From: Burkholderiales bacterium
GTDB taxonomy: Bacteria; Pseudomonadota; Gammaproteobacteria; Burkholderiales; SG8-39
DNA: 50,560 nt
Assembly: GCA_014860445.1 (NCBI GenBank)
Contig: JACZJT010000013.1
Location: 1 to 50,560, forward strand
Direction of reading: 5' to 3'
Part shown: positions 5,344 to 42,309 of the stretch, in pieces
How the letters are laid out: every line of letters starts with the position of its first letter
Numbering within the stretch: position 1 is the first letter of the stretch
Notes under the pieces: generated by a model
What the model saw: only the letters and a program-made list of their open reading frames with translations
Told to the model about the DNA's origin: nothing
The model's database searches: none
Program-made: the position numbers and the translations under genes

Positions 5344-5429
5344 GATTCGGGCATTTTCCCGGGATATTCTGTAGCCGAAGTCTGGTCGGCAGCGCGACTG
5401 CCCGCCGCAATCTGCAATGGAGGCAAAGC

Positions 5430-8056: not shown

Positions 8057-8059
8057 GCA

Positions 8060-28132: not shown

Positions 28133-28134
28133 TC

Positions 28135-29268
28135 ATGGATTTCGTAATCAGCGACGAACAACAGCAGTTGCGCGACAGCCTGCAGAAGTACATAACCAAG
28201 GAATACGGCTTCGAAGCGCGCAAGGCGATCATCGCGTCGAAGCAGGGATTTTCCGACAAGGTGTGGGCGCAGTTCGCCGAGATGGGCATCCTCGGCGTGG
28301 CCTTCGACGAGGCGCACGGCGGCTTCGGCGGCACCTCGGTGGACACCATGCTGGTGATGAACGAACTGGGCCGCGGCATCGTGGTCGAACCGTATTTTTC
28401 CACCGTGGTTCTGGGCGGCAGCCTGATCGACCTTGCCGGCAGCGAGGCGCAAAAGCAGGCCGTCCTGTCCGAAGTCGCGCAGGGCAAGCTCCTGCTCGCG
28501 GCGGCGCTGGGCGAGCCCAATTCGCGCTATGAGTTGAACTGCGTCGAGACCACGGCCAAGCGCGACGGCGCGGGCTATGTGCTCGACGGCCACAAGGCGG
28601 TGGTGCTGCACGGCGAGAGCGCCGACAAACTCGTGGTGTCGGCGCGCACCGCGGGCGGCGCGCGCGACGCGAAGGGCATCAGCCTGTTCCTCGTGGACAA
28701 GAAAAGCGCCGGCGTCGCGGTGCAGGGCTATCGCACCATCGACGGCATGCGTGCGGCCGAAATCAAGTTTGCCAAGGTCAAGGTCGGCGCCGACGCGGTG
28801 CTGGGCGAAGTCGATGCGGCACTGCCGGTGCTCGAACGTGCCAGCGATTTCGCCGTGACGGCCCTGTGCGCAGAAGCGGTGGGTGCAATGGAGGCGCTGA
28901 ATGCGGCCACCTTCGAATACCTGAAGACGCGCCAGCAGTTCGGCCGGCCGATCGGGAGCTTCCAGGCTTTGCAGCATCGCGCGGTGGACATGATGATTCA
29001 TTGCGAGCAGTCGCGTTCGCTGGCCTTGCTGGCTTCGATCAAGGTGCAATCGGAAGACCCGAACGAACGCAAGCGCACGGTGTCGGCGGCCAAGATCCAT
29101 ATCGGCCGCTCCGGCCGCGTGATCGGCGAGGAGGCGATACAACTGCATGGCGGCATGGGCGTGAGCAACGAGCTCGCGGCCGGGCATTACGCCAAGCGCC
29201 TCGCCATGATCAACGCCACCCTGGGCGACGTCGAGCACCACGCCGAGCGCTTCGCCAGCGCAGCGTAA
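28135..29268 (+). CDS. acyl-CoA dehydrogenase, second of a pair
   Basis: Divergent acyl-CoA dehydrogenase of 377 residues. The helical N-terminus FVISDEQQQLRDSLQKYI and the block LGEPNSRYELNCVETTAK replace the usual EPGxGSD signature, so part of the flavin/substrate site is altered. KTRQQFGRPIGSFQALQH and IQLHGGMGVSNELAAGHYAK are well conserved and bind FAD across the dimer. It is probably the partner subunit of the dehydrogenase encoded two bases upstream, forming a mixed tetramer; this follows from known FadE pairs. A strong hairpin follows at 29298. Confidence 0.9.
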   Translation: MDFVISDEQQQLRDSLQKYITKEYGFEARKAIIASKQGFSDKVWAQFAEMGILGVAFDEAHGGFGGTSVDTMLVMNELGRGIVVEPYFSTVVLGGSLIDLAGSEAQKQAVLSEVAQGKLLLAAALGEPNSRYELNCVETTAKRDGAGYVLDGHKAVVLHGESADKLVVSARTAGGARDAKGISLFLVDKKSAGVAVQGYRTIDGMRAAEIKFAKVKVGADAVLGEVDAALPVLERASDFAVTALCAEAVGAMEALNAATFEYLKTRQQFGRPIGSFQALQHRAVDMMIHCEQSRSLALLASIKVQSEDPNERKRTVSAAKIHIGRSGRVIGEEAIQLHGGMGVSNELAAGHYAKRLAMINATLGDVEHHAERFASAA

Positions 29269-29297
29269 CTTTCCCAAGGCCGGAATTTGGCCACCTT

Positions 29298-29323
29298 GTG
29301 GGAGCGAGCAAGTTCGCTCCCAC
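29298..29323. repeat. REP-like hairpin GTGGGAGCGA/TCGCTCCCAC
   Basis: Ten-base perfect arms surround a six-base loop, 29 bases after the dehydrogenase stop. The GTGGGAGCGA arm is like REP elements known from pseudomonads. No T-run follows, so it may slow or process transcripts instead of ending them. Confidence 0.55.
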
Positions 29324-29359
29324 GACCCCGTAGTTCGATCACCATTGATTGAGGTCACT

Positions 29360-30358
29360 ATGACAACCAATATGCAAGTACTGCTCGCCAGCCGACCGAC
29401 AGGCTGGGTGACGGAAGAGAATTTCAAGACCGTCAGCACCCCGGTTCCCGCGCCGGCCGACGGCCAGGTGCTGGTGCGCAATCACTATCTCTCGCTCGAT
29501 CCGTACATGCGCGGTCGCATGAACGACACCAAGTCCTATGCCGCCAAGCAGGAGATCGATGCGGTCATGGTCGGCGGCACGGTGGGCGAAGTGATTGAAT
29601 CGAAGAATCCGAAATTCAAGGCGGGCGACATCGTCGTCGGCGCCTACGGCTGGCAGCAATACGGCTGCTCGGACGGCGCCGGCCTGAACAAGGTCGACGT
29701 GAGCCGCGTGCCCATGTCGGCTTACCTCGGCGTGATCGGCATGCCCGGGGTCACAGCCTGGGTGGGCCTGCTGGATATCTGCCAGCCGAAAGCGGGCGAG
29801 ACGGTGGTGGTGTCGGCCGCTTCGGGCGCGGTCGGCAGCGCAGTGGGCCAGATCGCCAAGTTGAAGGGATGCCGCGCGGTGGGCATTGCCGGCGGCAAGG
29901 AAAAATGCGACTACGTGGTGAATGAACTGGGTTTTGACGCCTGCGTCGACTACAAGGCTGGAAGATTGCGGCAGGACCTGAAAGCGGCAACGCCCGACGG
30001 CATCGACTGCTATTTCGAGAACGTCGGCGGCGAAATTCTCGACGCCGTGCTTGCGCGCACGAACGCCTTCTCGCGCGTCGCCGTGTGCGGCCTGATCTCG
30101 CAGTACAACGCGACCGAGCCCTATGGCGTGAAGACCTTCCAGGCGATTCTGGTCAATCGCATCAAGGTGCAGGGATTCATCGTCAGCGATCGGCTCAACC
30201 TGTGGCCGCCGGCGCTGAAGGATCTCGCCGACTGGGTCGCTTCGGGCAAGTTGAAGTACCGCGAGACCATTGCGCAGGGCCTGGAGAACGCGCCCAAGGC
30301 TTTCATCGGACTGCTCAAGGGCCAGAACTTCGGCAAACAACTTGTTAAGCTGATCTAG
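29360..30358 (+). CDS. MDR-family NADP-dependent oxidoreductase, CurA/PTGR-like
   Basis: Medium-chain reductase of 332 residues without the zinc ligands of alcohol dehydrogenases. LSLDPYMRGRMND, VGGTVGEVIESKNPKFKAGD, GMPGVTAWVGLLDICQPKAG and VSAASGAVGSAVGQIAKLKG are the hallmarks of the CurA/prostaglandin-reductase group, which reduces carbon-carbon double bonds of enones using NADPH. DCYFENVGGEILDAVL and QGFIVSDR are also characteristic. I chose the ATG at 29360, with GAGG five bases upstream. It follows the dehydrogenase pair in the same direction and may reduce an unsaturated intermediate of the same pathway. Confidence 0.9.
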   Translation: MTTNMQVLLASRPTGWVTEENFKTVSTPVPAPADGQVLVRNHYLSLDPYMRGRMNDTKSYAAKQEIDAVMVGGTVGEVIESKNPKFKAGDIVVGAYGWQQYGCSDGAGLNKVDVSRVPMSAYLGVIGMPGVTAWVGLLDICQPKAGETVVVSAASGAVGSAVGQIAKLKGCRAVGIAGGKEKCDYVVNELGFDACVDYKAGRLRQDLKAATPDGIDCYFENVGGEILDAVLARTNAFSRVAVCGLISQYNATEPYGVKTFQAILVNRIKVQGFIVSDRLNLWPPALKDLADWVASGKLKYRETIAQGLENAPKAFIGLLKGQNFGKQLVKLI

Positions 30359-30370
30359 ACGCAATTACTC

Positions 30371-30478
30371 TGTCATTCCGAGCGTCCCCCAAGGGGACTT
30401 CCTTCGGGGCGCAGCGAGGAATCTGCTTTTCATGTTTCACATAAAGCAGATTCCTCGGCCAATGGCCTCGGAATGACA
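30371..30478. repeat. palindromic intergenic repeat, copy 1
   Basis: Outer arms TGTCATTCCGAG (30371-30382) and CTCGGAATGACA (30467-30478) and inner arms AGGAATCTGCTTT and AAAGCAGATTCCT (30417-30455) form a long imperfect palindrome. A second copy lies at 31708-31788. The transcript would fold into a long hairpin. Such TCATTCCGAG...CAGCGAGGAATCTGCTT elements are widespread intergenic repeats in bacteria; no mobility gene is nearby. Confidence 0.75.
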
Positions 30479-30496
30479 ATTCTTTGAGACGCAGCA

Positions 30497-30985
30497 ATGC
30501 CTGAATTCGATCCGCGTACGCACCAGCTCGCCGAGCAGCGCTGGTTCGAGGATTTTCGCGTAGGCGAGGTGTTCCGTCTGCCCAGCCGCACCATGAGCGA
30601 CGCGCATTTCCTCGCTTTCCAGGCGGCGAGCGGCGACAACCACCCGGTGCATTACGACCGCGAATACTGCCGCGCGCACGGCATGCCCGACCTGCTCGCG
30701 CATGGTTTCCAGGTGCTGATCCAGACGGCGGCCGGCGCCGGCCTGTTCCCGCACCAGGTGGACGACGCGCTCATGGGTTTCATCGAACAGTCGAGCCGCT
30801 TTGTCAAAGGCGTCTACGCGGGCGACACGCTCTACTCGGCGCTGGAAATCACCGAGCTCTTGCCGCAGCGCACGACCGGCGTGATCGTGATGCGCGCCAC
30901 GGTGCACAATCAGCGCGGCGAGCTGGTGCTCGATGGCATGCACAAGTACCTCATACGCAAGCGCAGCCCCGACAAGAAGGAGTAA
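30497..30985 (+). CDS. MaoC-family (R)-hydratase-like protein
   Basis: Hot-dog protein of 162 residues. The hydratase-2 motif is present as FQAASGDNHPVHYDREYCRAHGMPD, written here as two parts: ASGDNHPVHYD (catalytic Asp and His) and AHGMPDLLAHGFQV. It should hydrate trans-2-enoyl-CoA to the (R)-3-hydroxyacyl-CoA, or act as a related dehydratase. The C-terminal RATVHNQRGELVLDGMHKYLIRK is the usual last strand. Ribosome binding is weak (no clear AGGAG). The GST gene starts four bases after its stop. It sits in the acyl-CoA catabolic block between two palindromic repeats. Confidence 0.9.
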   Translation: MPEFDPRTHQLAEQRWFEDFRVGEVFRLPSRTMSDAHFLAFQAASGDNHPVHYDREYCRAHGMPDLLAHGFQVLIQTAAGAGLFPHQVDDALMGFIEQSSRFVKGVYAGDTLYSALEITELLPQRTTGVIVMRATVHNQRGELVLDGMHKYLIRKRSPDKKE

Positions 30986-30989
30986 CGCC

Positions 30990-31682
30990 ATGATCGACCT
31001 CTACACCTGGCCGACACCCAACGGCCACAAGATACACATCATGCTGGAAGAGACCGGCCTGCCCTATCGCGTGCACCCGATCGATATCGGCGCGGGCGAC
31101 CAGTTCAAGCCCGAGTTCCTCAAGATCAGCCCGAACAACAAAATGCCCGCGATGATCGATCCCGAGGGACCGGGGGGCAAGCCGATCTCCCTGTTCGAAT
31201 CGGGCGCGATGCTGCTTTATCTCGCCTCCAAGACCGGAAAATTTCTGCCCGAGGATATTTCCGATCGCTGGTCCACGCTGCAATGGCTGATGTTTCAGAT
31301 GGGCGGCGTCGGGCCGATGCTGGGCCAGGCGCATCATTTTCTCGGCTACGCGCCGGAAAAGCTTCCGTACGCGATGAAACGTTATTCCAACGAGGCCAAC
31401 CGGCTCTACGGCGTCATGGACCGGCGCCTGGCAGCGAGCAAATTCATCGCCTGCGACGAATACACCATCGCCGACATGGCGATCATGCCCTGGCTGCGTT
31501 TTCCGGAGCGCCAGGGCGTGGACATCGCCGACTATCCGCATGTGCAGAAATGGCGCGACGGCATCGCCGCGCGGCCGGCGGTGCAGCGCGGGGTCGCGGT
31601 GCTCGCCGAGCGTCGCAGACCGCTGATGGACGACAAGGCCAAGGAGATGCTGTTCGGCGCGGCGCAGTATCAGAAGAGGTAG
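30990..31682 (+). CDS. glutathione S-transferase, nu-class/YghU-YfcG-like
   Basis: Protein of 230 residues with an N-terminal thioredoxin fold (YTWPTPNGHKIHIMLEETGL, NKMPAMIDPE, LFESGAMLLYLASKTG) and an all-helical C-terminal domain (MFQMGGVGPMLGQAHHFLGY, YTIADMAIMPWLRF). The TPNGHK loop and the cis-Pro and ESGA glutathione-binding residues match the bacterial Ure2p/YfcG-like group, which act as disulfide-bond reductases or transferases. AAGGAG precedes the ATG at 30990. It is translationally close to the MaoC gene, suggesting that one product of the pathway is glutathione-conjugated or that it protects against electrophilic enones. Confidence 0.9.
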   Translation: MIDLYTWPTPNGHKIHIMLEETGLPYRVHPIDIGAGDQFKPEFLKISPNNKMPAMIDPEGPGGKPISLFESGAMLLYLASKTGKFLPEDISDRWSTLQWLMFQMGGVGPMLGQAHHFLGYAPEKLPYAMKRYSNEANRLYGVMDRRLAASKFIACDEYTIADMAIMPWLRFPERQGVDIADYPHVQKWRDGIAARPAVQRGVAVLAERRRPLMDDKAKEMLFGAAQYQKR

Positions 31683-31707
31683 ATCGGTATTAAGACAATC
31701 CCGATTC

Positions 31708-31788
31708 TGTCATTCCGAGCGCAGCGAGGAATCTGCTTTTCAATTTGGGGAGCAAGCAGATTTCTCGGCCTTCGGCCTCGAAATGACA
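31708..31788. repeat. palindromic intergenic repeat, copy 2
   Basis: TGTCATTCCGAG at 31708-31719 pairs with CTCGAAATGACA at 31777-31788 (one mismatch), and the inner arms GAGGAATCTGCTT and AGCAGATTTCTC also pair. It is a shorter version of the element at 30371-30478, lacking about 27 bases in the left arm. Both copies lie downstream of genes and flank the MaoC-GST pair. Confidence 0.75.
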
Positions 31789-31825
31789 GTTCCTGGGTTT
31801 GAGAAAATCATTTGGAGGAGACCGC

Positions 31826-32584
31826 ATGAGCTTGAAAGGCAAAGTGGCATGGATTACCGGCGGCGGCAGCGGCATCGGGCTCGCCGGCGCGATCGAACTG
31901 GCGAAGGCCGGCGCGCATGTGGTGATCTCCGGGCGCACGGCCGCGACCAACGCGTCGGCGCTGAAACAGGTGCAGGCGCGGGGCAGCGCCGAAGTGCTGC
32001 AACTCGAAGTCGGCGACAACAAGGCGGTGTTGAAGGCTGCGGCCGACATCCTGCTTCGGCACAAGCGCATCGACATCCTGATCAACAGCGCCGGCACCAA
32101 TCTGGGCAAGCGCCATCTGGGCAATATGTCGGTGGAAGGCTGGGACGACGTGGTCCGGATCAATCTGTCCGGCCTGTTCTATTGCTGCCAGGCGGTGCTG
32201 CCGGCGATGCGCGCGCAAAAGGACGGACTGATCATCAACGTGTCATCCTGGGCGGGGCGCTATCCGAGCATGCTCACGGGGCCGGCCTACAATGCGACCA
32301 AGCGTGCGGTGATCGCGCTCTCCGAGTCGATCAACCTGGAAGAATGCATCAACGGCATACGCGCGACCTCGGTGCTGCCCGGCGAAGTGGCCACGCCCAT
32401 ACTGGAGAAGCGCCCGGTGCCGCCTTCGAACGAAGAGCGCGCAAAAATGCTGCAGGCCGAAGATCTCGGACAGACCCTGTTGTTTCTGGCGAGCATGCCC
32501 GCGCGCGCCTGTGTGAACGAACTCATCATCAGCCCGACCTGGAACCGTCTTTATATAGGCGGTCTGGAGAAGGCGAAAGCCTAG
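31826..32584 (+). CDS. SDR-family oxidoreductase
   Basis: Short-chain dehydrogenase of 252 residues. NAD(P)-binding ITGGGSGIGLAGAIELAKAG is at residues 10-29, NSAGTNLGKRHL near 90, catalytic Ser in INVSSWAGRYPS, and Tyr/Lys in YNATKRAVIAL. The C-terminal part is adapted (PARACVNELIISPTWNRLYI) like a group of SDRs linked to acyl-CoA metabolism. GGAGGAG lies six bases before the ATG at 31826. It may oxidise a hydroxyacyl intermediate of the catabolic block; the substrate is not shown. Confidence 0.9.
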   Translation: MSLKGKVAWITGGGSGIGLAGAIELAKAGAHVVISGRTAATNASALKQVQARGSAEVLQLEVGDNKAVLKAAADILLRHKRIDILINSAGTNLGKRHLGNMSVEGWDDVVRINLSGLFYCCQAVLPAMRAQKDGLIINVSSWAGRYPSMLTGPAYNATKRAVIALSESINLEECINGIRATSVLPGEVATPILEKRPVPPSNEERAKMLQAEDLGQTLLFLASMPARACVNELIISPTWNRLYIGGLEKAKA

Positions 32585-32618
32585 TATGCAAACCCTCTGT
32601 CTCTTGAATTGGAATGTC

Positions 32619-33062
32619 ATGCGCCGCCTGCTGCTTGCCTGTTGTTTGTTTTTCTCCGCCTTCGCCGTCCACGCCGAGATCGTCGACATCGACAACGCCA
32701 TGCTGGCGAAGCTCTCGGCATCCGGCGTGCCGGTGATCGATATCCGCACCCGGCCGGAATGGGAGCAGACCGGCATCGTCCCGGGCAGCCACTTGCTGAC
32801 TTTCTTCGACGAGCACGGCAAGGCGGATCCGGCCGCGTGGCTGGAGAAGGCGAAGGCCATCGCCAAACCCGGCGATCCGGTGATCGTCATCTGCCGTACC
32901 GGCAACCGCACCAAAGTGCTGAGCCAGTTTCTGACGCAGCGCGTGGGCTATGCCAAGGTCTACAACGTCAAGAACGGCATCGTCGCCTGGGCCAAGGATG
33001 GAAGGCCGGTCAGCCCGGCGGCGCCGGCCCTGGCCGCCTGTCGCGCCGCCAAAACCTGCTGA
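32619..33062 (+). CDS. secreted rhodanese-like protein
   Basis: Single-domain rhodanese of 147 residues with a signal peptide (about 1-19, LLLACCLFFSAFAVHA). The catalytic loop is VICRTGNRTK, with the nucleophilic Cys, and VIDIRTRPEW and VYNVKNGIVAW are the other family blocks. It would carry a persulfide and transfer sulfur in the periplasm. The ATG at 32619 gives the signal peptide; an upstream ATG adds 11 residues. A C-terminal Cys (AAKTC) is present. It follows the SDR by 34 bases and converges with the diguanylate cyclase. Confidence 0.87.
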   Translation: MRRLLLACCLFFSAFAVHAEIVDIDNAMLAKLSASGVPVIDIRTRPEWEQTGIVPGSHLLTFFDEHGKADPAAWLEKAKAIAKPGDPVIVICRTGNRTKVLSQFLTQRVGYAKVYNVKNGIVAWAKDGRPVSPAAPALAACRAAKTC

Positions 33063-33072
33063 ATCCGGGGAT

Positions 33073-33089
33073 CGCCGCGTAATGCGGCG
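33073..33089. terminator. hairpin between convergent genes
   Basis: CGCCGC and GCGGCG pair around GTAAT, in the 36 bases between the stops of the rhodanese and the diguanylate cyclase. No T-run follows on either strand, so any termination would be weak. Confidence 0.35.
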
Positions 33090-33098
33090 CTGGGCCGG

Positions 33099-34022
33099 CT
33101 AGCCGGTAATAACTTGATCGCGCCCCGCCTGCTTTGCCGCGTAGAGGGCCTTGTCGATGCGGCGCAGAAGCGCATCGCCCGCTTCGCCCGCCGCCAGTTC
33201 AGCCACGCCAAAGCTCCCGGTCACCGGATCGGATAGCGGTTCGACGCGGGCGACTGCGAGCGCCGCTCTGATGCGCTCGGCCGTGGCGACGGCCTCCTCA
33301 AGAACCGTTTTTGGCATCAGTACGACGAACTCCTCGCCGCCGAAGCGCGTGACAATATCGGTCGCGCGCGTCTGCTGGCGCAACAGTTTGCCGAACGCGG
33401 CGAGCACCTTGTCGCCGGCCTCGTGACCGTGGGTGTCGTTGACGCGCTTGAAGTGGTCGAGGTCGGCCATGAGCGCGCACAGCTTGTCGCCGCTGCGCGT
33501 CGCGCGGCTGATTTCGCGTGCCAGCTCCCGCTCAAGCTGGTGCCGGTTGCCGACACCGGTGAGCTGGTCGGTCAGCGAGATCGCTACGATCTGCGCCTCG
33601 CGCTGCTTCAGTTCGAGGTTGACTTGCGCAATTGCGCGCTGCGCCTCGGCATAGTCGTTGTTTAGCGCGAGTATCGCGTTGTTGAGCCGTTCCAGCTCTT
33701 CGACGTCGTACTCGGCGAGCAAATGCAAGCGCGCGCCTGCGCGCCAGACACGCCCGCGCAGGGTCCTGGTCTGGCCCATGTGGTCGCCCATAGTTAGCAG
33801 CCCGCGGTGAATTTCCCCGTTTGCGCCGGCCGGAACGCGCGCCAGGTCGGCGAAGCTGGGCTGAATAAAAAATCGAGAGGCGTGCGCGCCGATTGGTTGC
33901 CTGCCGTCCACTTCGATCAATTTCAGAAAACCGGCATTGGCCTCGATCAGGACGCTGTCCTCATCCAGCGCTGCCGCTACGACCGCCAGCAGCGGCGCCA
34001 ACTCTGATGCAAACCAGGGCAC
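33099..34022 (-). CDS. PAS-like diguanylate cyclase (GGEEF)
   Basis: Protein of 307 residues. An N-terminal PAS-like sensory domain (about 1-105) is joined by a coiled coil (LAEYDVEELERLNNAILAL and on to about 145) to a GGDEF domain. The active signature is GGEEF at 228-232, and the inhibitory site RATD (219-222) sits five residues before it, so product feedback is expected. DLDHFKRVNDTHGHEAGD supplies the metal and substrate residues. It should make c-di-GMP. The GTG start at 34022 has AGGA nearby, and is eight bases beyond the stop of the B12-binding protein, so the two are very probably co-expressed. Confidence 0.93.
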   Translation of the reverse strand: MPWFASELAPLLAVVAAALDEDSVLIEANAGFLKLIEVDGRQPIGAHASRFFIQPSFADLARVPAGANGEIHRGLLTMGDHMGQTRTLRGRVWRAGARLHLLAEYDVEELERLNNAILALNNDYAEAQRAIAQVNLELKQREAQIVAISLTDQLTGVGNRHQLERELAREISRATRSGDKLCALMADLDHFKRVNDTHGHEAGDKVLAAFGKLLRQQTRATDIVTRFGGEEFVVLMPKTVLEEAVATAERIRAALAVARVEPLSDPVTGSFGVAELAAGEAGDALLRRIDKALYAAKQAGRDQVITG

Positions 34023-34030
34023 TCGCTGTC

Positions 34031-35101
34031 CTATCCTTTCAGGGTTTCGCGTGCGTAGGCGAGTGCCACCCGCGGGTCGGCGCAGTACGCGTCCGCCCCC
34101 ACCACGCCTGCCAGGCTGTTGAATCGGTTGATTGCCAGGCCGCCTATGATCACGCCCGGCCGCGCAACGCCGTTTTGTGCTCCCAGTTGCGCAATCACCT
34201 CCTTGACTACGCGCAACTGCTGCGCGAAAGATACCGACAGACCGACCAGATTCGGTTTCCAGGCGGCCACCTGCCCGATCAGCGCACGTGTGGGGACGTT
34301 GGCGCCGAGATATTGCACCTCCCAGCCGGCAAGTTGAAACGCATCGGCCACCATGCGTAGCCCAACGCCGTGGTTATTGCCTTCAACGCAAGCGAGTAGC
34401 ACGCGCTTGCCGATCGACGCCGGCGGCTGCGAACGCAGCAGCGCCATCGTCATTATCGACTGCACGATTGCAGTCGCCATGTGCTCCTGTGCGACGCTCG
34501 CCTGGTTGGCCTGCCATTTCTCGCCGATCCCGTAGAGCGCGGCCTGAATTACGTGCAGTTCGATCTCGACCAGGCTGTGTCCGTCGTCGATACAGCGATT
34601 CACCAGCGCCATTGCTTCGCGCTGGTTTCCTTCGAGCAGTGCCGCCTCGAACGCGGCGGTCTCCGGCCAATGCTCGGGCGAAACGGGCGGCGCCGCCGGA
34701 GATTCTCCGATTTCGAGGAATTTCGTGCGCACCGCCTGCAGCGTCGCACTCACCAGCGCGCCTTCCGCCGCATCCATGTGCCCGGCAAAAAATTCCGCCA
34801 GCCAGTCGAGCGACTGCCCCAGGTGCTTTGCCGGTATGGAGCGCGCGACAAGCACGCTGTTCAGCCAGCACAGGTAGTCCACCATCGGCTGAATCAGCCC
34901 GAACTCCAGCACCGGCCGCAGAAATTCCAGGTGAAACGCGAGGTCCTCGCGGCAGGCTTCGCGTCCGCGCGGGCCGAACTGCTCATACACCGAACCATGC
35001 GTCGCATAAAAGCGCTCGGTCACCGCGCGCACCGCTTCCGCCTGCAGCGCCTGAAACCGCAGCAGGGCCCCGGCATTCAGCGTTTTGAGAGTCGTGTCCA
35101 T
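34031..35101 (-). CDS. cobalamin-binding protein with CarH-type Wx9EH motif
   Basis: Protein of 356 residues. The N-terminal half (about 20-130) is helical and unassigned. From about 145 a four-helix cap (LLEGNQREAMALVNRCIDDG) precedes a Rossmann-like B12-binding domain from about 232 (RVLLACVEGNNHGVGLRMVA, YLGANVP, VGLSVSF, IIGGLAIN). The cap has W196 and E206-H207, exactly the Wx9EH spacing that lines the upper side of cobalamin in CarH photoreceptors, and His244 in NNHGVG would be the lower ligand. There is no MerR DNA-binding domain, so output must be by protein contact. The diguanylate cyclase gene starts eight bases downstream. Confidence 0.88.
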   Translation of the reverse strand: MDTTLKTLNAGALLRFQALQAEAVRAVTERFYATHGSVYEQFGPRGREACREDLAFHLEFLRPVLEFGLIQPMVDYLCWLNSVLVARSIPAKHLGQSLDWLAEFFAGHMDAAEGALVSATLQAVRTKFLEIGESPAAPPVSPEHWPETAAFEAALLEGNQREAMALVNRCIDDGHSLVEIELHVIQAALYGIGEKWQANQASVAQEHMATAIVQSIMTMALLRSQPPASIGKRVLLACVEGNNHGVGLRMVADAFQLAGWEVQYLGANVPTRALIGQVAAWKPNLVGLSVSFAQQLRVVKEVIAQLGAQNGVARPGVIIGGLAINRFNSLAGVVGADAYCADPRVALAYARETLKG

Positions 35102-35124
35102 GACTTATCTCGATGCTTCCATTG

Positions 35125-35424
35125 CTAGTTCGCGAACACTTCGAACAAACGCACTTCGGCGCTGCCCGGCACCAACTTGAGGCCTTTTGGTATGCCTTTG
35201 TGCGCCTCGTGGTATTCGTGGCCGCGGTGCCACGTTCGGTAGCTCTGCTCGTCACTCCATCGCGTCACAAGCCAGATCTCGTCCGCATTGTCCGCCGGGC
35301 ACATCACCTCCATGCCGATGAATCCCGGCGCGCTGTCGACCAGATGGGGCCGATCGCGAAAGGCGGCGCGCACCTGGTCCGCCATGTCGTTGGCAATGGT
35401 GAAGCGGCTCAAAGCGACGAACAT
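35125..35424 (-). CDS. antibiotic biosynthesis monooxygenase (ABM) domain protein
   Basis: Small dimeric alpha/beta-barrel protein of 99 residues. MFVALSRFTIANDMADQVR, APGFIGMEVMCPADNADEIW and WLVTRWSDEQSYRTWHRG are the ABM signature, and the His cluster in WHRGHEYHEAH resembles haem-degrading HmoA/IsdG-like members. Haem oxygenase or quinol monooxygenase activity is possible; the sequence alone does not decide. It is 23 bases upstream of the B12-binding gene in the same direction, and so may belong to the same operon. Confidence 0.87.
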   Translation of the reverse strand: MFVALSRFTIANDMADQVRAAFRDRPHLVDSAPGFIGMEVMCPADNADEIWLVTRWSDEQSYRTWHRGHEYHEAHKGIPKGLKLVPGSAEVRLFEVFAN

Positions 35425-35492
35425 ATCGATCCCGCTATTCTGCGATGCCGTCTATGCTACTGCTTCCGGGACCCCAGCGCTTTTAACGGCCT

Positions 35493-36710
35493 TCAGCCTG
35501 GGCCCGCCGATCGCAAAAACTCCGTCAGCAAGCGGTTTACCACTAGTGGCTGCTCCTGCTGCACCCAATGGCCGGCGCCGTCCACCAAGTGGCAGCCGAG
35601 CAGCTGCGTGCATGCAGCGGTCTGCATTTTCTCGAAGTCCCCTGGTTTTTGATAGACGCCCCAGTCGCTTTTACCGGCGATGAAGCAGGCGGGCACATCG
35701 ATCGTGCGCCCCGCGAATAATTGCAATTCGGCGGTAAATTTTCCGCTGGTGGTGCAGCGATACCACTGCAGCCCACCCTGAAAGCCGGTGCGCGCATACT
35801 CGGTGCTGTAGACGGAAAGCTCGCTGTCGGGCAGCCATTTGCATGCGGCGATTTCAGCCGCAGACGGCATCTCGGGCGCGACCGTTTCCGCCATGCCCCG
35901 GTCGAAGTCCATCACGTAGTAAGTGGGCAGTTGCGCCATCGCCTCGGCGCGCCAGGATTGCAGCGGGGCGGGCCGGTTCTGTTTCCAGTCGGCGCTCTTG
36001 TGGTGATAGTAGGCGCGCAGGAAATCGTGGATGCCCTGCGGAGCTTTGCGCATATTGTCGTTCGCCTCGCGCGTCGAGTAGTACCACTGGTAATGCTTGC
36101 GCGGGCGCGACAGCTGCGCCAGCGCAGCGTTCATCCCGGGGTCGGCAAGGCCCGTTGCGACTGGTTTATGCCCGACATCCGACGCCGTGCCGAAGGGCAG
36201 GGGCGGCGGGCCGCCGAACGGTGCGCTCATCAGCGCCACAGAGCGGAATACGTCCGGGCGCAGCAGCGCGCACCAGGCCGCGACCGGCGCGCCGAAATCG
36301 TGTCCTACCACCGCTGCGACCGAGCGATAGCCCAGCGCCGACACCAGGCCCAGCGCGTCGCGCACCAGGTTGAACAGCCGGAAGGAGCCGAGGTCGCCAT
36401 CGTAGTCCGCGTCCCAGCCGGTGGTGCGCCCGTAACCGCGCTGGTCCGGTGCAATCACGTGAAACCCCGCCTGCGCGAGCGGCAGCATCACCTTGCGCCA
36501 GCTGTAGGCGAGCTCCGGAAAGCCGTGCAGCAGCAGTACGCAAGGGCGGTCACTGTCTGGAGAATGGCTCTGAAAGCCAGCCTCCAGCATATGCACTCTG
36601 AGCCCGTTGATGTTTTCAACGAAACGCGAGCGCACGCCGGCAGGCAGTTCGGACGGGTCGAACGCGGTGGGCGCGGACTCGTTCATATTCATGTTCGCGA
36701 TCTGGCCCAT
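35493..36710 (-). CDS. epoxide hydrolase-like alpha/beta hydrolase
   Basis: Protein of 405 residues. HGFPE (oxyanion motif HGxP), the nucleophile in VVGHDFGAPVAAW (Asp), and His in GAGHWVQQEQP are the catalytic features of soluble epoxide hydrolases; a long cap domain (about 190-330) contains Tyr residues that could protonate the epoxide. It would open an epoxide to a diol. The start is uncertain: ATG at 36710 has GGAG 12 bases away, and an ATG at 36692 is an alternative. A decayed partial copy lies at 41607-41869. It lies in a minus-strand run with AroQ-like upstream and ABM downstream. Confidence 0.88.
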   Translation of the reverse strand: MGQIANMNMNESAPTAFDPSELPAGVRSRFVENINGLRVHMLEAGFQSHSPDSDRPCVLLLHGFPELAYSWRKVMLPLAQAGFHVIAPDQRGYGRTTGWDADYDGDLGSFRLFNLVRDALGLVSALGYRSVAAVVGHDFGAPVAAWCALLRPDVFRSVALMSAPFGGPPPLPFGTASDVGHKPVATGLADPGMNAALAQLSRPRKHYQWYYSTREANDNMRKAPQGIHDFLRAYYHHKSADWKQNRPAPLQSWRAEAMAQLPTYYVMDFDRGMAETVAPEMPSAAEIAACKWLPDSELSVYSTEYARTGFQGGLQWYRCTTSGKFTAELQLFAGRTIDVPACFIAGKSDWGVYQKPGDFEKMQTAACTQLLGCHLVDGAGHWVQQEQPLVVNRLLTEFLRSAGPG

Positions 36711-36745
36711 GTCCGGTCAAGTCTCCGGTTGATCAGCCCGGCGCG

Positions 36746-37189
36746 CTACGCGCTCTTTTTTTTCAGCAGCCGCAGCATGGCGGAAACCGCGGTGGCGTAG
36801 CCCTCGGGTCCAAGGCCCATGATGACTGCCGTGGCAGCCGTCGACATCAGCGAATGCCGGTAGATCTCCTCGCGGCGATGGATATTGCTGATATGCAGCT
36901 CGATGATGGGGCCGGGAAACATCTTCAGGGCATCGAGCACAGGAATCGAGCGAAAGCTCAGCCCCGCGGGATTGATGACAATGGCCGAACCCGCGTCGAT
37001 GGCCTCGTGGATCCAGTCGACGAGCTCGTGCTCCGCGTTGGTTTGCCTGAACTCGATCGGCTGCGCGCCCGCGGCCTTGCGGCACATGGTTTCAAGCTCG
37101 GCCAGGGTCGTCCTGCCGTAGATTTCAGGTTCGCGCGTGCCGAGGCGATTGAGGTTCGGCCCGTTGAGGACATAGATCGGCTTGTTCAT
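36746..37189 (-). CDS. AroQ-like type II 3-dehydroquinate dehydratase family protein
   Basis: Protein of 147 residues, typical length. It has LNGPNLNRLGTREPEIYG (with the catalytic Tyr and Arg region), FRQTNAEHELVDWIHEA, and ELHISNIHRREEIYRHS with the catalytic His. The usual GLTHTS segment is GLSFRS, so the substrate-contacting His is Phe. It may still act on dehydroquinate or on a related ring acid; this is why I do not assign aroQ outright. The head of a minus-strand gene run reaching the diguanylate cyclase; gap to the epoxide hydrolase is 35 bases. Confidence 0.85.
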   Translation of the reverse strand: MNKPIYVLNGPNLNRLGTREPEIYGRTTLAELETMCRKAAGAQPIEFRQTNAEHELVDWIHEAIDAGSAIVINPAGLSFRSIPVLDALKMFPGPIIELHISNIHRREEIYRHSLMSTAATAVIMGLGPEGYATAVSAMLRLLKKKSA

Positions 37190-37581
37190 TCATTGCTCCT
37201 GCATGCGGTCGAATCGGATTTCAGAATTCGCAGGAAAGGTACAGCACCGGGCGCTGGATGTCGAGAAAGCGATACTCCGAATCTGCTTCGCCCTTGGATC
37301 GCGGGTGTCCGTTTAGCGGATTGATAGGGAGTTCACACTTTCGGCCATGACCGGACGGTCCTATCTCTCGCGGAAAGCAGCCATTGGCCAATAATAAAAA
37401 TTGGCCGTACTATTCAAACTGATGTTATCCATCCTGTCCGGGTTTGCTCTTTATTGATATAGAGACAGGATCGCTTTTTGGCGAAAACGAATCAAGTACT
37501 TAAGGGTCTCGGCACATGGCTTCCTCATTATTGATGAAGAGACACACCGGTCTCTACAATCACTGTTAGAGATTTCCTGAC
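37190..37581. other. lower-GC leader with several short inverted repeats
   Basis: I see no gene in these 392 bases. It holds GGCCAAT/ATTGGCC (37386-37406), ATCCTGTC/GACAGGAT (37431-37471) and the GTTAGAG core at 37564-37570, the left edge of the first cassette. Base composition drops here compared with the minus-strand operon to the left. Confidence 0.5.
37564..37570 (+). repeat. cassette left boundary GTTAGAG
   Basis: GTTAGAG is one base from the integron core GTTRRRY and is exactly complementary to CTCTAAC at 38119-38125, the start of the attC-like site at the other end of the HEPN gene. This complementarity is expected of an integron cassette, in which the 5' edge and the attC pair. Confidence 0.5.
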
Positions 37582-38124
37582 ATGTCTGCAGCGCACGACA
37601 CCTTCAAGCACAGCATTCGCGATGCGACCGACCTCTTGGAGCATTTCGATCGAGTCAACGTCCAGCCTCCACCGGAGAATGCAGAAGTCCTGAAGCGCGC
37701 AAGCTTGGTAATGGCACTCGCCGCGCTGGAAACCTACATCGAAGATCGCATCACCGAAGCCGCATCCGCGAAGGCTCAAGGTGCAAAAGAATCCCTTCTT
37801 GGCCGTTTCTACACAGACAGTCTTGAAAACGACCTACGTTACTTTCACTCGCCAAGTGCAGACCGGGTGAGAAATCTCTTCAAGAAATACCTTTCCATTG
37901 ACGTCGCGCAAGGGTGGACTTGGAACAACTACGAGCCCGCTCGGGCTAAGAGTGAACTGGACAAGCTTGTATCCAAGCGCGGCGATATCGCGCACCGGTC
38001 TCCGCCGCCGAAAGGCCCCATTCCATCGCCACATATTGTCACTAGAGAGGCCATGCGGAAGCATGTGCAGTTCATACGTGATCTGGTTCAAGCGAGCGAC
38101 AAGTACCTTGAGGAAAATCTCTAA
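37582..38124 (+). CDS. HEPN-domain RNase-like protein
   Basis: Protein of 180 residues, all-helical, with the HEPN signature Rx4H at Arg133-His138 (KRGDIAHR) and AALETYIEDRITEA in the second helix, like the RiboL-PSP-HEPN group. HEPN proteins with this motif are often metal-independent RNases in toxin-antitoxin or phage-defence modules. No antitoxin of the MNT type is adjacent. The TAA stop lies inside CTCTAAC, the first element of an attC-like site, as in many integron cassettes. Base composition is lower in GC than the flanking genome. Confidence 0.8.
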   Translation: MSAAHDTFKHSIRDATDLLEHFDRVNVQPPPENAEVLKRASLVMALAALETYIEDRITEAASAKAQGAKESLLGRFYTDSLENDLRYFHSPSADRVRNLFKKYLSIDVAQGWTWNNYEPARAKSELDKLVSKRGDIAHRSPPPKGPIPSPHIVTREAMRKHVQFIRDLVQASDKYLEENL

Positions 38125-38208
38125 CAAGCGGTCCGAGGCGACGCGCGTGAAGCTGCGTTCCGTTTTGCAGACAGCACAGCCGCGCGTGCCTAAACCGAAA
38201 CGTTGAGC
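38119..38208 (+). repeat. attC-like recombination site after the HEPN gene
   Basis: The site runs from CTCTAAC (38119-38125) to GTTGAGC (38202-38208, matching GTTRRRY). The arms GGCGACGCGCG and CGCGCGTGCC region are imperfectly complementary, with an unpaired centre of about 40 bases. The length of 90 and the stop codon embedded in the first core fit integron attC sites. The first core begins with C in place of a purine. Confidence 0.55.
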
Positions 38209-38214
38209 GCAATC

Positions 38215-38703
38215 ATGACCGTCACGATTCCCGACGCTGTTCGACAGATGCTTAGCATCGTCGAGAAGCTATGTGAGACGTATCCGAAGAAAAAATTTAC
38301 GCTCGATGGACGGTTGGTAGGAGATATTGGCGAAGTGTTGGTCGAGGACGCTTACGACCTTGAGCTTTTTGCGGACATGAAGAAGCACCACGATGGCGAG
38401 TGTTCGGACGGCAGATTAGTCCAGATCAAGGCCACGATGAAAAAAGCCCTTACATTTCCAGCGGATCACGTACCGAACTATTACCTCGGCGTGCAGATAC
38501 ACTCCGACGGGACCTTCACGGAAATATTCAATGGCCCCGGGGCTATCGCATGGGAAGCTGTGAAGGGCCGCGCGGCGCCTAAGACCAACCTATATTCCGT
38601 ACAAATTGCGACCTTGAAGCAGCTCCAGGCACGGGTCGCGACCGCTGACAAAATCCCGTTGCGCTCTAACAAACGCTTGCATGGGACGCGCGGGCGCCCC
38701 TGA
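38215..38703 (+). CDS. DUF6998-like, putative PD-(D/E)XK nuclease-fold protein
   Basis: Protein of 162 residues resembling DUF6998 (FTLDGRLVGDIGEVLVEDAY, DGRLVQIKAT, EIFNGPGAIAWEA). Glu40 in GDIGE, Asp65 in SDGR and Gln70-Lys72 in VQIK are spaced as in PD-(D/E)XK nucleases such as Mrr-type enzymes; that function is inference. The ATG at 38215 lies seven bases after the GTTGAGC core, a typical cassette start; a TTG at 38203 is an alternative. The last 12 codons read through CTCTAAC and the following arm, so the native C-terminus may have been altered by the attC. Confidence 0.7.
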   Translation: MTVTIPDAVRQMLSIVEKLCETYPKKKFTLDGRLVGDIGEVLVEDAYDLELFADMKKHHDGECSDGRLVQIKATMKKALTFPADHVPNYYLGVQIHSDGTFTEIFNGPGAIAWEAVKGRAAPKTNLYSVQIATLKQLQARVATADKIPLRSNKRLHGTRGRP

Positions 38704-38717
38704 GGTGCAGCCTTGAG
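38664..38717 (+). repeat. possible degenerate attC site
   Basis: CTCTAAC at 38664-38670 is identical to the first core of the preceding site, and is followed by a GC-rich imperfect arm; a possible second core is CTTGAGT near 38711-38717 (first base off consensus). The pairing of the arms is weak, so this may be an eroded array end. Confidence 0.35.
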
Positions 38718-39005
38718 TGTCTGCTTATCTAAACGGGCGACTTCCGGTGTGGGTCGATTGTGAGCCTTGCGCAACTCAAACTCGGCGCCGAAAAGCGGGC
38801 CTTGAATCTCCGTTTTCCTGAAGCCGCCGCTGACCAACCGGCGCAACCGTCCAGGACCAGACCATCGCGAATTTCCGGCAGTCGCTCAAGGCTACGCGCG
38901 ATGACCGCGCTGCGAGCCTGGCGGCAACGCTGCTTCGCGAACAAGATTGCGTCGACGCCCGGCGACAATCGAGCGAGATAAATCATCCCGGTATCGTCCT
39001 TCGAA
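38718..39005. other. gene-free stretch with degenerate repeats
   Basis: No gene is supported here. A reverse-oriented ATCGACCC-type element (about 38739-38759) and GAAGCCGCCGCTGAC (38823-38837) recur in the regions at 43443-43613 and 48355-48379. Confidence 0.4.
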
Positions 39006-39878
39006 TTATCGGCAGAATATATTGACGAGTTCGCGAGCGATCTCGGATGGCGTCTTTTTTCCCTTCTTATACCAGAACCGGGTCCAGTTCAACGCACCAA
39101 GCAAGGCAAGGCGAAATTGGGTGCGGTCGATACGCGCGGGAAGGTCCAGCACATCGATCAAGGTGCGGAATCGTGCCTCGTAGGCGTTCCTGACCTTGAG
39201 CAGGCGCTTGGTCAGCATGCCCGCGTTGGGGGTGAACACCAAAGAATTGCCGGTAAAGCCCGCGAGCACGTCCCCGTCATCCAGAAGTAAACCGAGGTGT
39301 GCCGCACAGGCCGCTTCCAATCGCTGGCGAGGATTCCTGACATTCGCAAGCGCCTGATCGATCGCGGCGTTGAGGTCCTTGAATCCTTCGTTGTGCGCCT
39401 GCACGAACAGGTCCTCCTTGGAGCGGAAGTAGTGGTAGATCGAACCTGGGAGGATTCCCCCTGCTTTGGCAATTTCCTTCAAGGTAGCGCCCTTGTAACC
39501 TTCACGATAGAAGGCCCGCGCAGCGGCGATCAGGAGATGGCGGCGCCGCATATCGGATTTTCCGCGACGGCTATCGACGCCTGCGTTCTTCAACAGCTCC
39601 CAGCGGTGCTCGGCGCGTTCGAAACGCGCGCGCTGTGCGTCGTTCATCCGGGTGCCCGTACGCGAGCGATGTTTCTCGACCGCTGAAACGCGCTTGTAAA
39701 GCGTTTCGAGCTCGTGCCGTTTCCAGATTGCGCGTACGCCGGAGGGTGATATCTGGATGCCACGCCTGCGTAGTTCGTCGGCAACCCGGAACTGTCCCAG
39801 TTCCGGTTTGGATGCGGCACACGCCAGTACGATCGCTTCCATGTCGGATCGCGTACTGGGCCTCGACGTACTGCCCAT
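39006..39878 (-). CDS. TetR-family regulator with N-terminal transposase-type HTH
   Basis: Protein of 290 residues with two DNA-binding regions. Residues about 10-65 (FRVADELRRRGIQISPSGVR, IWKRHELETL) match the helix-turn-helix found at the N-terminus of certain IS transposases/integrases. Residues about 113-160 are a TetR_N domain (AARAFYREGYKGATLKEIAK, GSIYHYFRSKEDLF), followed by a ligand-binding helical domain. Typical TetR proteins are about 200 residues, so the first 110 are extra. I place the start at 39878 by the GGGGAAG nearby; an ATG at 39965 is in frame. It diverges from the phosphoesterase gene and probably controls it. Confidence 0.82.
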   Translation of the reverse strand: MGSTSRPSTRSDMEAIVLACAASKPELGQFRVADELRRRGIQISPSGVRAIWKRHELETLYKRVSAVEKHRSRTGTRMNDAQRARFERAEHRWELLKNAGVDSRRGKSDMRRRHLLIAAARAFYREGYKGATLKEIAKAGGILPGSIYHYFRSKEDLFVQAHNEGFKDLNAAIDQALANVRNPRQRLEAACAAHLGLLLDDGDVLAGFTGNSLVFTPNAGMLTKRLLKVRNAYEARFRTLIDVLDLPARIDRTQFRLALLGALNWTRFWYKKGKKTPSEIARELVNIFCR

Positions 39879-39942
39879 CAATCTTCCCCGCGAATCATAA
39901 AAGAAGAGGACATTCTGCCAGACGCACTTACCAAATAACCAG

Positions 39943-39970
39943 TTGACAGGACACAATTCCTGCATATAAC
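39943..39970 (+). promoter_or_regulatory. candidate sigma-70 promoter toward the phosphoesterase
   Basis: TTGACA (39943-39948) and TATAAC (39965-39970) are 16 bases apart; positions may be off by one. It points toward the phosphoesterase gene, leaving a leader of about 245 bases that contains the dyad at 39984-40022. Confidence 0.45.
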
Positions 39971-39983
39971 CTGAATCCAGTAA

Positions 39984-40022
39984 CTTCCCAGACAGTTATT
40001 CCAAAACGTTTTGCCTGGGAAG
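39984..40022. promoter_or_regulatory. dyad CTTCCCAG...CTGGGAAG with AAAACGTTTT centre
   Basis: Eight-base perfect arms at 39984-39991 and 40015-40022 enclose the palindrome AAAACGTTTT (40003-40012). It lies just downstream of the candidate promoter in the divergent region, where a TetR operator would be expected. Confidence 0.45.
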
Positions 40023-40220
40023 ATTTACCGGGGAACGTGAAATTCGCTGACTTAAGTAAAGAGGGCGTATGACGCGATTTCCCTGTGCGAGACGCAAGAT
40101 GGTTCTGTAAGAGAAATAAGAGGCCAAGGCATTTACGCGCTGAAAGGCCCGACTGTCAGAAGGACGAATCAATAGGCGCACCGGTATCCGGACCAATAAC
40201 CTATTATCGAGGAGGGACAC

Positions 40221-41303
40221 ATGACTCTGAACACACTGCGGACGAGCGCCGCTGCTGTCTTACTGTTAAGCACGAGTATTGCCGGTTGTGGCACGATGGC
40301 TGTCGGGAATGCCCAGGAGCGCGCTTTCGACTTCGCCCTGATCGGCGACATGCCGTATACGAAAGTTCAGGAGAAAGAGTATCAGCGCGTCCTTGCCGCG
40401 CTAAACGCCGCCGACCTCGCCTTCGTGGCACATATTGGCGACTTCCAGTTCGATGCCAGGCCCTACAACCGGAACCCGAAACTTGCCTCGATGCCCTGCG
40501 TCGACGAGAACTACAAGGCGATTTTTGACTCGTTCCAGTCCGTCCGCCATGCCTTCATTCTGACGCCCGGCGACAACGACTGGTCCGACTGCTGGCCGCT
40601 CAAGGCGAAGAAGGTCGATTCGCTCGAGCTGCTCGCCAAGATTCGCACCATGTACTTCCCGGAAGGCAAAAGCCTGGGGCAGAAGCCGATCGCGGTGCAT
40701 AACCAGTCCGCCGATCCGAAGTTCTCGAAGTTCCGCGAAAACCTGCGCTGGTCCATGGGTGGTGTGACCTTCGTGACACTGCACATCATTGGCTCGAACG
40801 ACAACTTCGGCCGCACGCCCGAGATGAACGCCGAGCACATGGAGCGCAAGGCCGCGAATCTCGCCTGGATCAAGCAGGCGTTCGCCGAAGCCAGGGCGAC
40901 CGCTAGTCGTGGGCTGGTGGTGCTTACGCAGGCAAATCCGGGATTCGAGACGGTCTGGCCGGCCGGCAACAAGACGCGCTATTTCCTCCCCTTCATTCCG
41001 CGTGGAAAGCCCTTGCCAAGCATCCCCCTGGCCTTCGATGACTACCTAAGCGCACTTTCGGAAGAACTGGAGACCTTCGACAAGCCTGTGGCATACCTGC
41101 ACGGCGACACGCACATCTTCCGCATCGACAAGCCGCTTTTCAGCAGCAAGACCAAACGCCCTTTCCTGAACTTCACGCGCGTGGAGACATTCGGCTGGCC
41201 CGACACCCACTGGGTTCGCGTCACCGTTGACCCGGCCGACCCGCAACTGTTTCGCTTCAATGCGGAAATTGTCCCGGGCAACATTGTCAACAGGAAGAAA
41301 TAG
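40221..41303 (+). CDS. lipoprotein metallophosphoesterase
   Basis: Protein of 360 residues exported as a lipoprotein: the signal ends in the lipobox STSIAGC with Cys23. The calcineurin-like phosphoesterase blocks are FALIGDMPYT (Asp43), FVAHIGDFQFD, LTPGDNDWSD and LHGDTHIFRID, which bind two metals. Substrate is unknown; it could cleave phosphodiester bonds or phosphorylated sugars in the periplasm. GAGGAGG lies seven bases upstream of the ATG. The divergent TetR-like gene and the operator-like dyad suggest regulated expression. Confidence 0.88.
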   Translation: MTLNTLRTSAAAVLLLSTSIAGCGTMAVGNAQERAFDFALIGDMPYTKVQEKEYQRVLAALNAADLAFVAHIGDFQFDARPYNRNPKLASMPCVDENYKAIFDSFQSVRHAFILTPGDNDWSDCWPLKAKKVDSLELLAKIRTMYFPEGKSLGQKPIAVHNQSADPKFSKFRENLRWSMGGVTFVTLHIIGSNDNFGRTPEMNAEHMERKAANLAWIKQAFAEARATASRGLVVLTQANPGFETVWPAGNKTRYFLPFIPRGKPLPSIPLAFDDYLSALSEELETFDKPVAYLHGDTHIFRIDKPLFSSKTKRPFLNFTRVETFGWPDTHWVRVTVDPADPQLFRFNAEIVPGNIVNRKK

Positions 41304-41343
41304 GCGCAAACGACGCGCCTGGCCATGTCCAGGCTCTCGCTGC

Positions 41344-41370
41344 AACCGGCGCCCGCGTGCGGGCGCGGTT
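41344..41370 (+). terminator. GC-rich hairpin after the phosphoesterase
   Basis: AACC, GCGCCCGC and their complements GCGGGCGC, GGTT pair around a two-base loop, with one unpaired G. There is no T-run, so it is a structure with doubtful terminator strength. No gene is seen between 41304 and 41606. Confidence 0.4.
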
Positions 41371-41606
41371 GAGCGCCAGGTTCAGCGTCCGCTTACCATT
41401 CTTGCCGGTGACGGCTTAGGGTCGTGAGGGAGTCTTTGCGTACTTGAATTTCTGACGCCGGCCGGAATCAGTAGCTACCGCGCCCCGGTTGAATGAAAGC
41501 GTGCGTGAATCGCCGGGCGCTGTAGACCCTGTTCACCGGGCGGTGATGCCGTCTATTTCATCCTTGAGGGAATCCATCGACGACCGCACCCACGCCTTGT
41601 ATTCCG

Positions 41607-41970: not shown

Positions 41971-42309
41971 ATGATTACGGAATATGTACTGTTCGACCTA
42001 CCCGCGAACATGAGCCGCGAGCAGGTCGTCGAAAGCATGCGCGCGGTCGCATCGAAGTGGCGTGCGACCCCGGACCTGATCCGCAAGACCTTCGTCTACG
42101 ATGCTGACGCGCGGCAGACCGGCGCATTTTACCTATGGAGTAACAAGGCGGCCGCGCTCAATGCGCACAACGAGGACTGGCGCCGGGCTGTGCTGGAGAC
42201 CTTCGGCAGCGTGCCCGTGATCCGCTATTTCGAAACGCCGCTGGTGGTGGACAATGCACTTGGTGAAACGATAGAGGAAACGGTGCGCGCGCCGAACAAG
42301 GTCCGATGA
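41971..42309 (+). CDS. YdhR-like putative monooxygenase
   Basis: Protein of 112 residues of the dimeric alpha/beta-barrel superfamily, similar to YdhR. MITEYVLFDLPANMSREQVV, LIRKTFVYDADARQTGAFYL and IRYFETPLVVDN are the family blocks. YdhR relatives are described as putative monooxygenases with unproven substrates. GGAG six bases before the ATG supports the start. The stop overlaps the FIST gene start (ATGA), indicating coupled translation. Confidence 0.85.
   Translation: MITEYVLFDLPANMSREQVVESMRAVASKWRATPDLIRKTFVYDADARQTGAFYLWSNKAAALNAHNEDWRRAVLETFGSVPVIRYFETPLVVDNALGETIEETVRAPNKVR

Follow-up and report, generated by a model that had tools for sequence, protein, structure and literature searches.

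What is a cobalamin protein of the light-sensing type doing directly in front of a diguanylate cyclase gene, and why is a small ABM protein encoded in front of both? The question is raised by a locus in a 50,560-nucleotide stretch of DNA from a Burkholderiales bacterium (contig JACZJT010000013.1; the whole stretch is called the window below). Three open reading frames (ORFs), all on the minus strand and with confirmed coordinates (Table 1), follow each other there in the order ABM, cobalamin protein and PAS-GGDEF protein, with gaps of 23 bases between ABM and sensor and 8 bases between sensor and cyclase. An earlier note on this DNA had suggested for the locus a CarH-type B12 protein acting on the cyclase. 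We propose, with a probability of roughly two in three, that the three genes encode a split photocobilin signaling module, in which light would control the cyclase in trans.

The putative sensor and the adjoining cyclase

The solved sequences closest to the sensor are the photocobilins SasPcob (8j2w/8j2x, 1.4e-21) and AbDPcob (sensor part, 8j2y, 3.4e-19), followed by the light-responsive CtMerR (8jbs, 7.5e-18) and, further down, by the CarH of Thermus (5c8d, 1.5e-6). All four elements of the published B12 light-sensing signature, GxxW, EH, GxxH and GxxxP (PMC11796333), are present as G193/W196, E206/H207, G241/H244 and G266/P270. Seven of these residues (G193, W196, E206, H207, H244, G266 and P270) are invariant in 14 of 14 aligned sequences, the window's included, and G241 is kept in 11 of the 14. 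The W196-x9-E206-H207 motif and His244 were therefore described correctly in the earlier note, and its call of a CarH-like photoactive B12 pocket stands. The sensor shares this adenosylcobalamin (AdoCbl) pocket signature with the CarH of Thermus thermophilus (TtCarH) but differs from it in two respects. As the note had also observed, it carries no DNA-binding domain in a Pfam scan, so that the MerR-type domain of CarH is missing, and W196 is followed by Q197, as it is by Gln in SasPcob. Since the bis-His light state of TtCarH is made by a His after the Trp, no such state is expected in the window sensor. Against the family model NF052513 the sensor scores 56 bits, where the cut-off is 400. In a Foldseek search AerR (7te2) appeared at rank 34; AerR is a stand-alone B12 regulator that works through a partner protein.

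The stand-alone protein is not, however, the bare CarH core that it had been taken for: both profile and model/Foldseek searches indicate that residues 1-132 form a globin of the bilin type, which had been overlooked. A profile of this region alone (A4; residues 1-136, 11 sequences), run against all PDB sequences, found as its best matches the globin domains of AbDPcob (8j2y, 2e-6) and SasPcob (8j2w, 3e-6), and the remaining 57 of the best 60 of 62 matches (E <= 10) are phycobiliproteins or smURFP, with allophycocyanins first and the best at 0.0012. The window sequence alone matches such globins weakly (10.7 bits in 8j2y; phycocyanin E 0.45). Because the full-length AlphaFold2 (AF2) model was too poor in its B12 half, the globin was modeled alone, which from a six-sequence alignment gave five helices with a pLDDT of 88.4 and a pTM of 0.84. 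Foldseek returned no PDB match to this model at E <= 0.001, the best lying at 5.4e-3; of the best 50 (TMq 0.58-0.76) among 742 matches at E <= 10, 49 come from SasPcob, smURFP, phycobiliproteins or parts of the phycobilisome, and the odd one is named 'bacterial fluorescent protein'.

The residues of the putative bilin pocket point the same way. The profile alignment places D53 at SasPcob chain index 264 and W79 at 290, which we equate with Asp270 and Trp296 because the EH motif lies at 65-66 in the chain and at 71-72 in the paper, an offset of 6. In SasPcob, Asp270 touches biliverdin rings A-C and Trp296 ring D (PMC10979010). C50 aligns with the Cys of the phycobiliprotein CxRD motif (PMC10151467). 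Over the 14 rows of alignment A3, the D53 column holds Asp in 10, Glu in one (Methylovulum) and His in three (paralogues from genome G426), the W79 column holds Trp throughout (14/14) and the C50 column Cys in eight. AbDPcob, with His at the place of Asp270, is a weak biliverdin binder (PMC10979010), so that D53 places the window sensor on the good-binder side at this residue. The sensor agrees with the photocobilins in every sequence feature open to testing and is, on that basis, a photocobilin with its globin in front.

The third gene encodes a predicted diguanylate cyclase with intact catalytic and inhibitory sites: the GG(D/E)EF active site is present as GGEEF (228-232) and the RxxD inhibitory site as RATD, five residues upstream. 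This much of the earlier description, with the spacing, holds, whereas the PAS call is weak by Pfam, at PAS_4 E 0.014 for the window protein alone and PAS_9 1.8e-4 for the Methylovulum homologue, both below Pfam's cut-off. A profile of the PAS region found no match with E below 0.4 among solved structures.

Some related observations may be set beside these. Genome G426 encodes three paralogous globin-B12 proteins (L033-L035), none adjoining a recognized cyclase or ABM gene, in which His occupies the position of the biliverdin-contacting Asp and the Trp is followed by His, as in CarH. Locus L013 carries a second, tandem PAS-cyclase copy after the first (7673-8458, plus strand; PAS match 7835-8224). 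A corrinoid methyltransferase subunit was considered for the window protein and rejected on account of its photoreceptor signature and globin. Other B12 proteins of the window genome lie on its contig C41 (23-29% identity); two of 641 and 645 aa there (L037, genome G000) have URO-D matches below Pfam's cut-off, and the same contig encodes a 237-aa corrinoid-type protein (L009); together they may belong to corrinoid methyltransferase chemistry.

Gene order at related loci

Nine loci with at least 55% sensor identity were treated as close: the window and L011-L018 (L014, L015 and L017 being the same as L002, L003 and L004). They include a Ca. Nitrotoga metagenome-assembled genome (MAG; L011, Betaproteobacteria), a Burkholderiales MAG (L012), Methylovulum miyakonense HT12 (L016, Gammaproteobacteria) and a Gemmatimonadetes MAG (L018), in which the sensor is split over two frames. 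A window-like PAS lies directly downstream of the sensor at 8 of the 8 other close loci, and the pairing of sensor and PAS exceeds chance. At six of the nine the next ORF bears a GGDEF domain (window, L012, L013, L014, L015 and L016); the contigs of L011 and L018 end before one could show, and in L017 the PAS is followed by a kinase ATPase domain. The two genes of the pair are separated by 6-8 bases at five loci (in L012 with the homologous start at 9080) and overlap by 14 bases in L011, over a range of 55-74% sensor identity. The flanking ORFs of the window (27000-41400) match none of those at seven other loci, all but L018 (blastp 1e-8, ORFs of 100 aa or more). Elsewhere L014, L015 and L017 share a remote neighbor family (29-35%), and the other loci yield three more matching pairs. 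A conserved pair within unlike flanks, with an exchanged output, favors a functional module. The pair, for which the earlier note had suggested a search of other genomes, is conserved elsewhere, contrary to the lack of conservation that the note had listed among its refuting outcomes.

The ABM gene is likewise a recurrent part of the module, and not the mere preceding neighbor that its first description implied. ABM sequence precedes the sensor at seven of the nine close loci, intact in four (window, L011, L012 and L015) and partial in three (residues 47-98 in L013, 32-97 over two frames in L014, and 55-99 in L017), with no ABM match in L016 and L018. Among the 14 distant loci (L028-L036 and L044-L048), which comprise all remaining matches of the sensor searches, it adjoins the sensor at seven: L030, L031 (divergently), L032, L044, L045, L047 and L048.

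Outputs at the distant loci are more varied. A histidine kinase lies beside the sensor in L028, L031 and L032, a kinase-receiver-Hpt hybrid in L045, and in L048 a kinase comes after an intervening 145-aa gene. L036 and L047 hold the cyclase or its PAS part, and the cyclase-type PAS is found in both L036 and L048. The neighbor in L044 runs off the contig and has no Pfam match. In L030 an ABM-PAS-coiled-coil fusion (6156-8239, minus strand) overlaps the globin-B12 gene by 4 bases, and thus joins ABM and PAS in one protein.

The distribution of the sensor is rare and patchy, with 5 of 60 relatives, 7 of 369 genomes of the class (profile A1, 1e-25) and 6 of 398 of the phylum (profile A3, 1e-40), the window genome being counted in each. 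A viral origin was rejected, as a search with one sequence as query found no relative in viral contigs.

The ABM protein and chromophore supply

The ABM protein, which the note had called possibly haem-related, does match haem-degrading families of the HmuQ/IsdG type, with qualifications. Its best NCBIfam match is HmuQ, at 42 bits under a cut-off of 130, so that it falls short of an HmuQ equivalog; 10 of 10 members of its subfamily match the same model, the best at 2.8e-13. IsdG-type haem-degrading enzymes require a triad of Asn, Trp and His (PMC5557675), and the window protein has S6, W65 and H75 at these positions. It therefore shares with the IsdG/HmuQ enzymes the ABM domain, the Trp and the His, but departs from them in having Ser for the catalytic Asn, in scoring under the family cut-offs and in its linkage to a photoreceptor-type gene. 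Among the subfamily and the ABM protein of L048, which stands outside it and has Asn, the Trp is kept in 11 of 11 and the His in 10 of 11.

A profile of the subfamily found 4 of 369 class genomes at 141-171 bits (cut-off 1e-22) and 10 of 398 phylum genomes (cut-off 1e-16), four of these at 158-171 bits and six at 62-67 bits; the two samples overlap in part, and the genomes scored were the best candidates of a first look. In all seven distinct strong-scoring genomes, each of which had also contributed rows to the profile, the ABM gene adjoins a B12 gene. No further genome exceeded 67 bits in the phylum sample or passed 1e-22 in the class sample. The window ABM belongs to a distinct subfamily, whose strong members were seen, in the sampled genomes, only beside such B12 genes; the window genome encodes four ABM proteins in all.

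Classical haem oxygenase (PF01126) occurs in only 2 of the 21 genomes that hold these or related genes, namely G306 and G802 (the genome of L013), some of the 21 being incomplete or of unstated completeness. The window genome, 99.5% complete, has neither a classical haem oxygenase (PF01126) nor a phytochrome PHY domain. A bilin, if one is used, would therefore come from a non-classical enzyme or from outside, and as 19 of the 21 genomes are without the classical enzyme, the ABM protein is a candidate bilin maker, although Ser replaces its catalytic Asn. AdoCbl is likely to be available, given that the window genome encodes a cobalamin adenosyltransferase.

Proposed mechanism, alternatives and neighboring genes

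Photocobilins became known in 2024 through one cyclase fusion and one stand-alone protein with a function that the authors call 'less clear' (PMC10979010). In the fusion, AbDPcob, the apparent turnover of the cyclase is >10-fold higher once light has been given, and with purified proteins in vitro SasPcob loaded with bilin activates, in the light, a cyclase domain that is separate from it (PMC10979010). The control of a diguanylate cyclase by B12 and light is therefore already known, both in the fusion and in trans, and the central idea of the earlier note is not new in kind. What is new is a split ABM-photocobilin-PAS-GGDEF operon conserved in several genera, with histidine kinases in the place of the cyclase next to relatives that are further removed; no split operon of this sort, having an ABM subfamily of its own and outputs that can be exchanged, was found in the open-licence PMC literature, and it may be described elsewhere.

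The published photocobilins resemble the window protein in their W-EH/His B12 domain, bilin-type globin, Asp270/Trp296 equivalents and cyclase output, and SasPcob also in the Gln after the Trp. They differ in several respects: the window globin is N-terminal (the paper mentions photocobilins whose B12 domain lies at one end or the other), the cyclase has a gene of its own apart from the sensor, an ABM gene is linked, and a Cys stands at the phycobiliprotein attachment column, whereas photocobilins are said to have no attachment Cys (PMC10979010). The BBAG-2 clusters (PMC10151467) similarly keep a bilin-type globin, a B12 protein and bilin-making genes together, but there globin and B12 protein have a gene each, and pre-PcyA and haem oxygenase take the place of ABM as bilin genes; the main text of that paper contains neither GGDEF nor diguanylate.

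From the observed anatomy and conservation we infer ligand binding, a light response, its direction and an ABM role along the following lines. In the dark the sensor would hold AdoCbl, probably as a head-to-tail dimer. Green or blue light, or red light should the globin contain a bilin, would break the Co-C bond and change the shape or assembly of the sensor, which would then act in trans by contacting the PAS-coil region of the cyclase, and so alter cyclic di-GMP (c-di-GMP) output. Light most likely raises c-di-GMP, as with AbDPcob and bilin-loaded SasPcob, but without a bound bilin the effect could be the reverse. For the ABM protein, a part in the chromophore chemistry of the sensor is most likely, possibly the conversion of haem to bilin. 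An operon that pairs a stand-alone photocobilin with its likely output enzyme offers a natural partner for testing and a two-part optogenetic tool, and the linked ABM subfamily hints at a route of bilin supply in organisms without a classical haem oxygenase. A bolder version seems doubtful to us: a self-sufficient two-chromophore cassette in which no classical haem oxygenase is needed because the ABM protein itself makes the bilin or loads it, Cys50 may hold it covalently and the docking region serves exchangeable GGDEF and histidine kinase outputs. If true, this would amount to a full-visible-range c-di-GMP switch for proteobacteria without phytochromes.

Several observations weigh against a light-controlled module of this kind. 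AdoCbl-bound SasPcob without biliverdin activates the cyclase in the dark and inhibits it in the light (PMC10979010). The full-length AF2 model of the sensor is poor in the B12 half (mean pLDDT 64.7). Ser stands for the catalytic Asn in 10 of 10 aligned subfamily ABM proteins, and in Methylovulum (L016) the pair occurs without an ABM match and Glu stands at the Asp53 position. Globin-less B12 proteins still occur, in L048 together with ABM and a kinase and in L036 together with a PAS cyclase, and therefore bilin-making cannot fully account for the ABM protein and bilin may be dispensable. Five of the 14 distant loci (L029, L033-L035 and L046) have no recognized ABM, cyclase or kinase neighbor, phmmer finding no adjacent ABM or cyclase homologue there, and of 13 further genomes in the window's genus none carries the sensor. 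Kinship between the cyclase-type PAS and the kinase-type PAS of L031, L032, L044 and L045 was not shown by hhalign (probability 19.5, E 0.0012), which aligned only the C-terminal 61 columns.

Some of these points would suit a sensor of cobalamin status or redox state, in which AdoCbl occupancy or oxidation sets assembly and cyclase output and the globin is a structural relic. AdoCbl binding alone reduces the cyclase activity of AbDPcob (PMC10979010), no classical haem oxygenase or phytochrome is recognized in the window genome, and globin-less B12 proteins share the gene context. We nonetheless regard this as unlikely, since a full photochemical signature and biliverdin-contact residues, largely kept across genera, would be needless for a pure B12-level sensor. 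That the genes are mere neighbors, the sensor controlling some other partner and the cyclase answering a ligand of its own PAS-like domain, is somewhat less probable still: photocobilin-type genes without a recognized adjoining output do exist (L029, L033-L035 and L046), but the pair is kept with its short gaps or, in L011, its overlap at the divergence given above, and the output type is swapped while the sensor stays. Lowest of all we would place a haem- or bilin-sensing branch, in which haem or its product would pass from the ABM protein to the globin, haem or iron status is the signal and B12 serves only as an assembly cofactor. The match of the ABM proteins to the IsdG/HmuQ haem-degrading families and the ABM-PAS fusion beside the photocobilin of L030 would fit such a branch, yet the globin residues agree with the bilin-binding pattern seen in SasPcob and the phycobiliproteins, the paper that named the photoglobins calls them non-haem globins in its title, and another residue stands at the catalytic Asn position of the ABM family.

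Table 1. Positions of the module's genes, domains and key residues in the window.
Feature	Positions	Strand	Basis
ABM (IsdG/HmuQ-like) protein, 99 aa, first gene of the module	35125..35424	-	Pfam ABM residues 1-76, 1.5e-16
Predicted photocobilin-type sensor, 356 aa, N-terminal globin and C-terminal B12 domain	34031..35101	-	
Five-helix bilin-type globin (photoglobin) domain, sensor residues 10-132	34706..35074	-	Profile A4, AF2, Foldseek
C50-R-E-D53 of sensor globin	34943..34954	-	D53 = SasPcob Asp270; C50 = phycobiliprotein CxRD cysteine
W79 of sensor globin, equivalent to SasPcob Trp296 (packing on biliverdin ring D)	34865..34867	-	Profile alignment; PMC10979010
B12-binding_2 four-helix bundle, residues 151-218, G193-x-x-W196 and E206-H207	34448..34651	-	Pfam 4e-15
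B12-binding Rossmann domain, residues 233-335, G241-x-x-H244 (lower ligand), G266-x3-P270	34097..34405	-	Pfam 8e-18
Predicted PAS-GGDEF diguanylate cyclase, 307 aa, GTG start	33099..34022	-	
PAS-like domain and linker helix, cyclase residues 1-140, probable docking input	33603..34022	-	Kept in partner cyclases; weak Pfam PAS
GGDEF domain, residues 150-303; GGEEF 228-232, inhibitory RATD 219-222	33114..33575	-	Pfam 3e-42

Around the operon, a promoter scan of 32900-37300 found no sigma-70-like site, and terminators in the same interval were no more numerous than in shuffled sequence. The direct neighbors encode a rhodanese, an alpha/beta hydrolase and a dehydroquinase, and are not regulators. 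Further away (39006-39965, minus strand) lies a TetR regulator with a weak HTH_21 match, below cut-off, in its first ~100 residues. A dense signaling region on the plus strand (2979-12885 and 20894-23859) encodes two PAS kinases, a double receiver, a 1337-aa receiver-PAS-GAF-GGDEF-EAL protein, a receiver-PAS protein and a receiver-PAS-HD_5 protein, and so places possible c-di-GMP turnover genes on the operon's contig. At 41971-43385 (plus strand) a YdhR-like small protein (a weak match, below cut-off) overlaps by 4 bases with a sensor protein containing FIST N and FIST C, which may be another small-monooxygenase/sensor pair.

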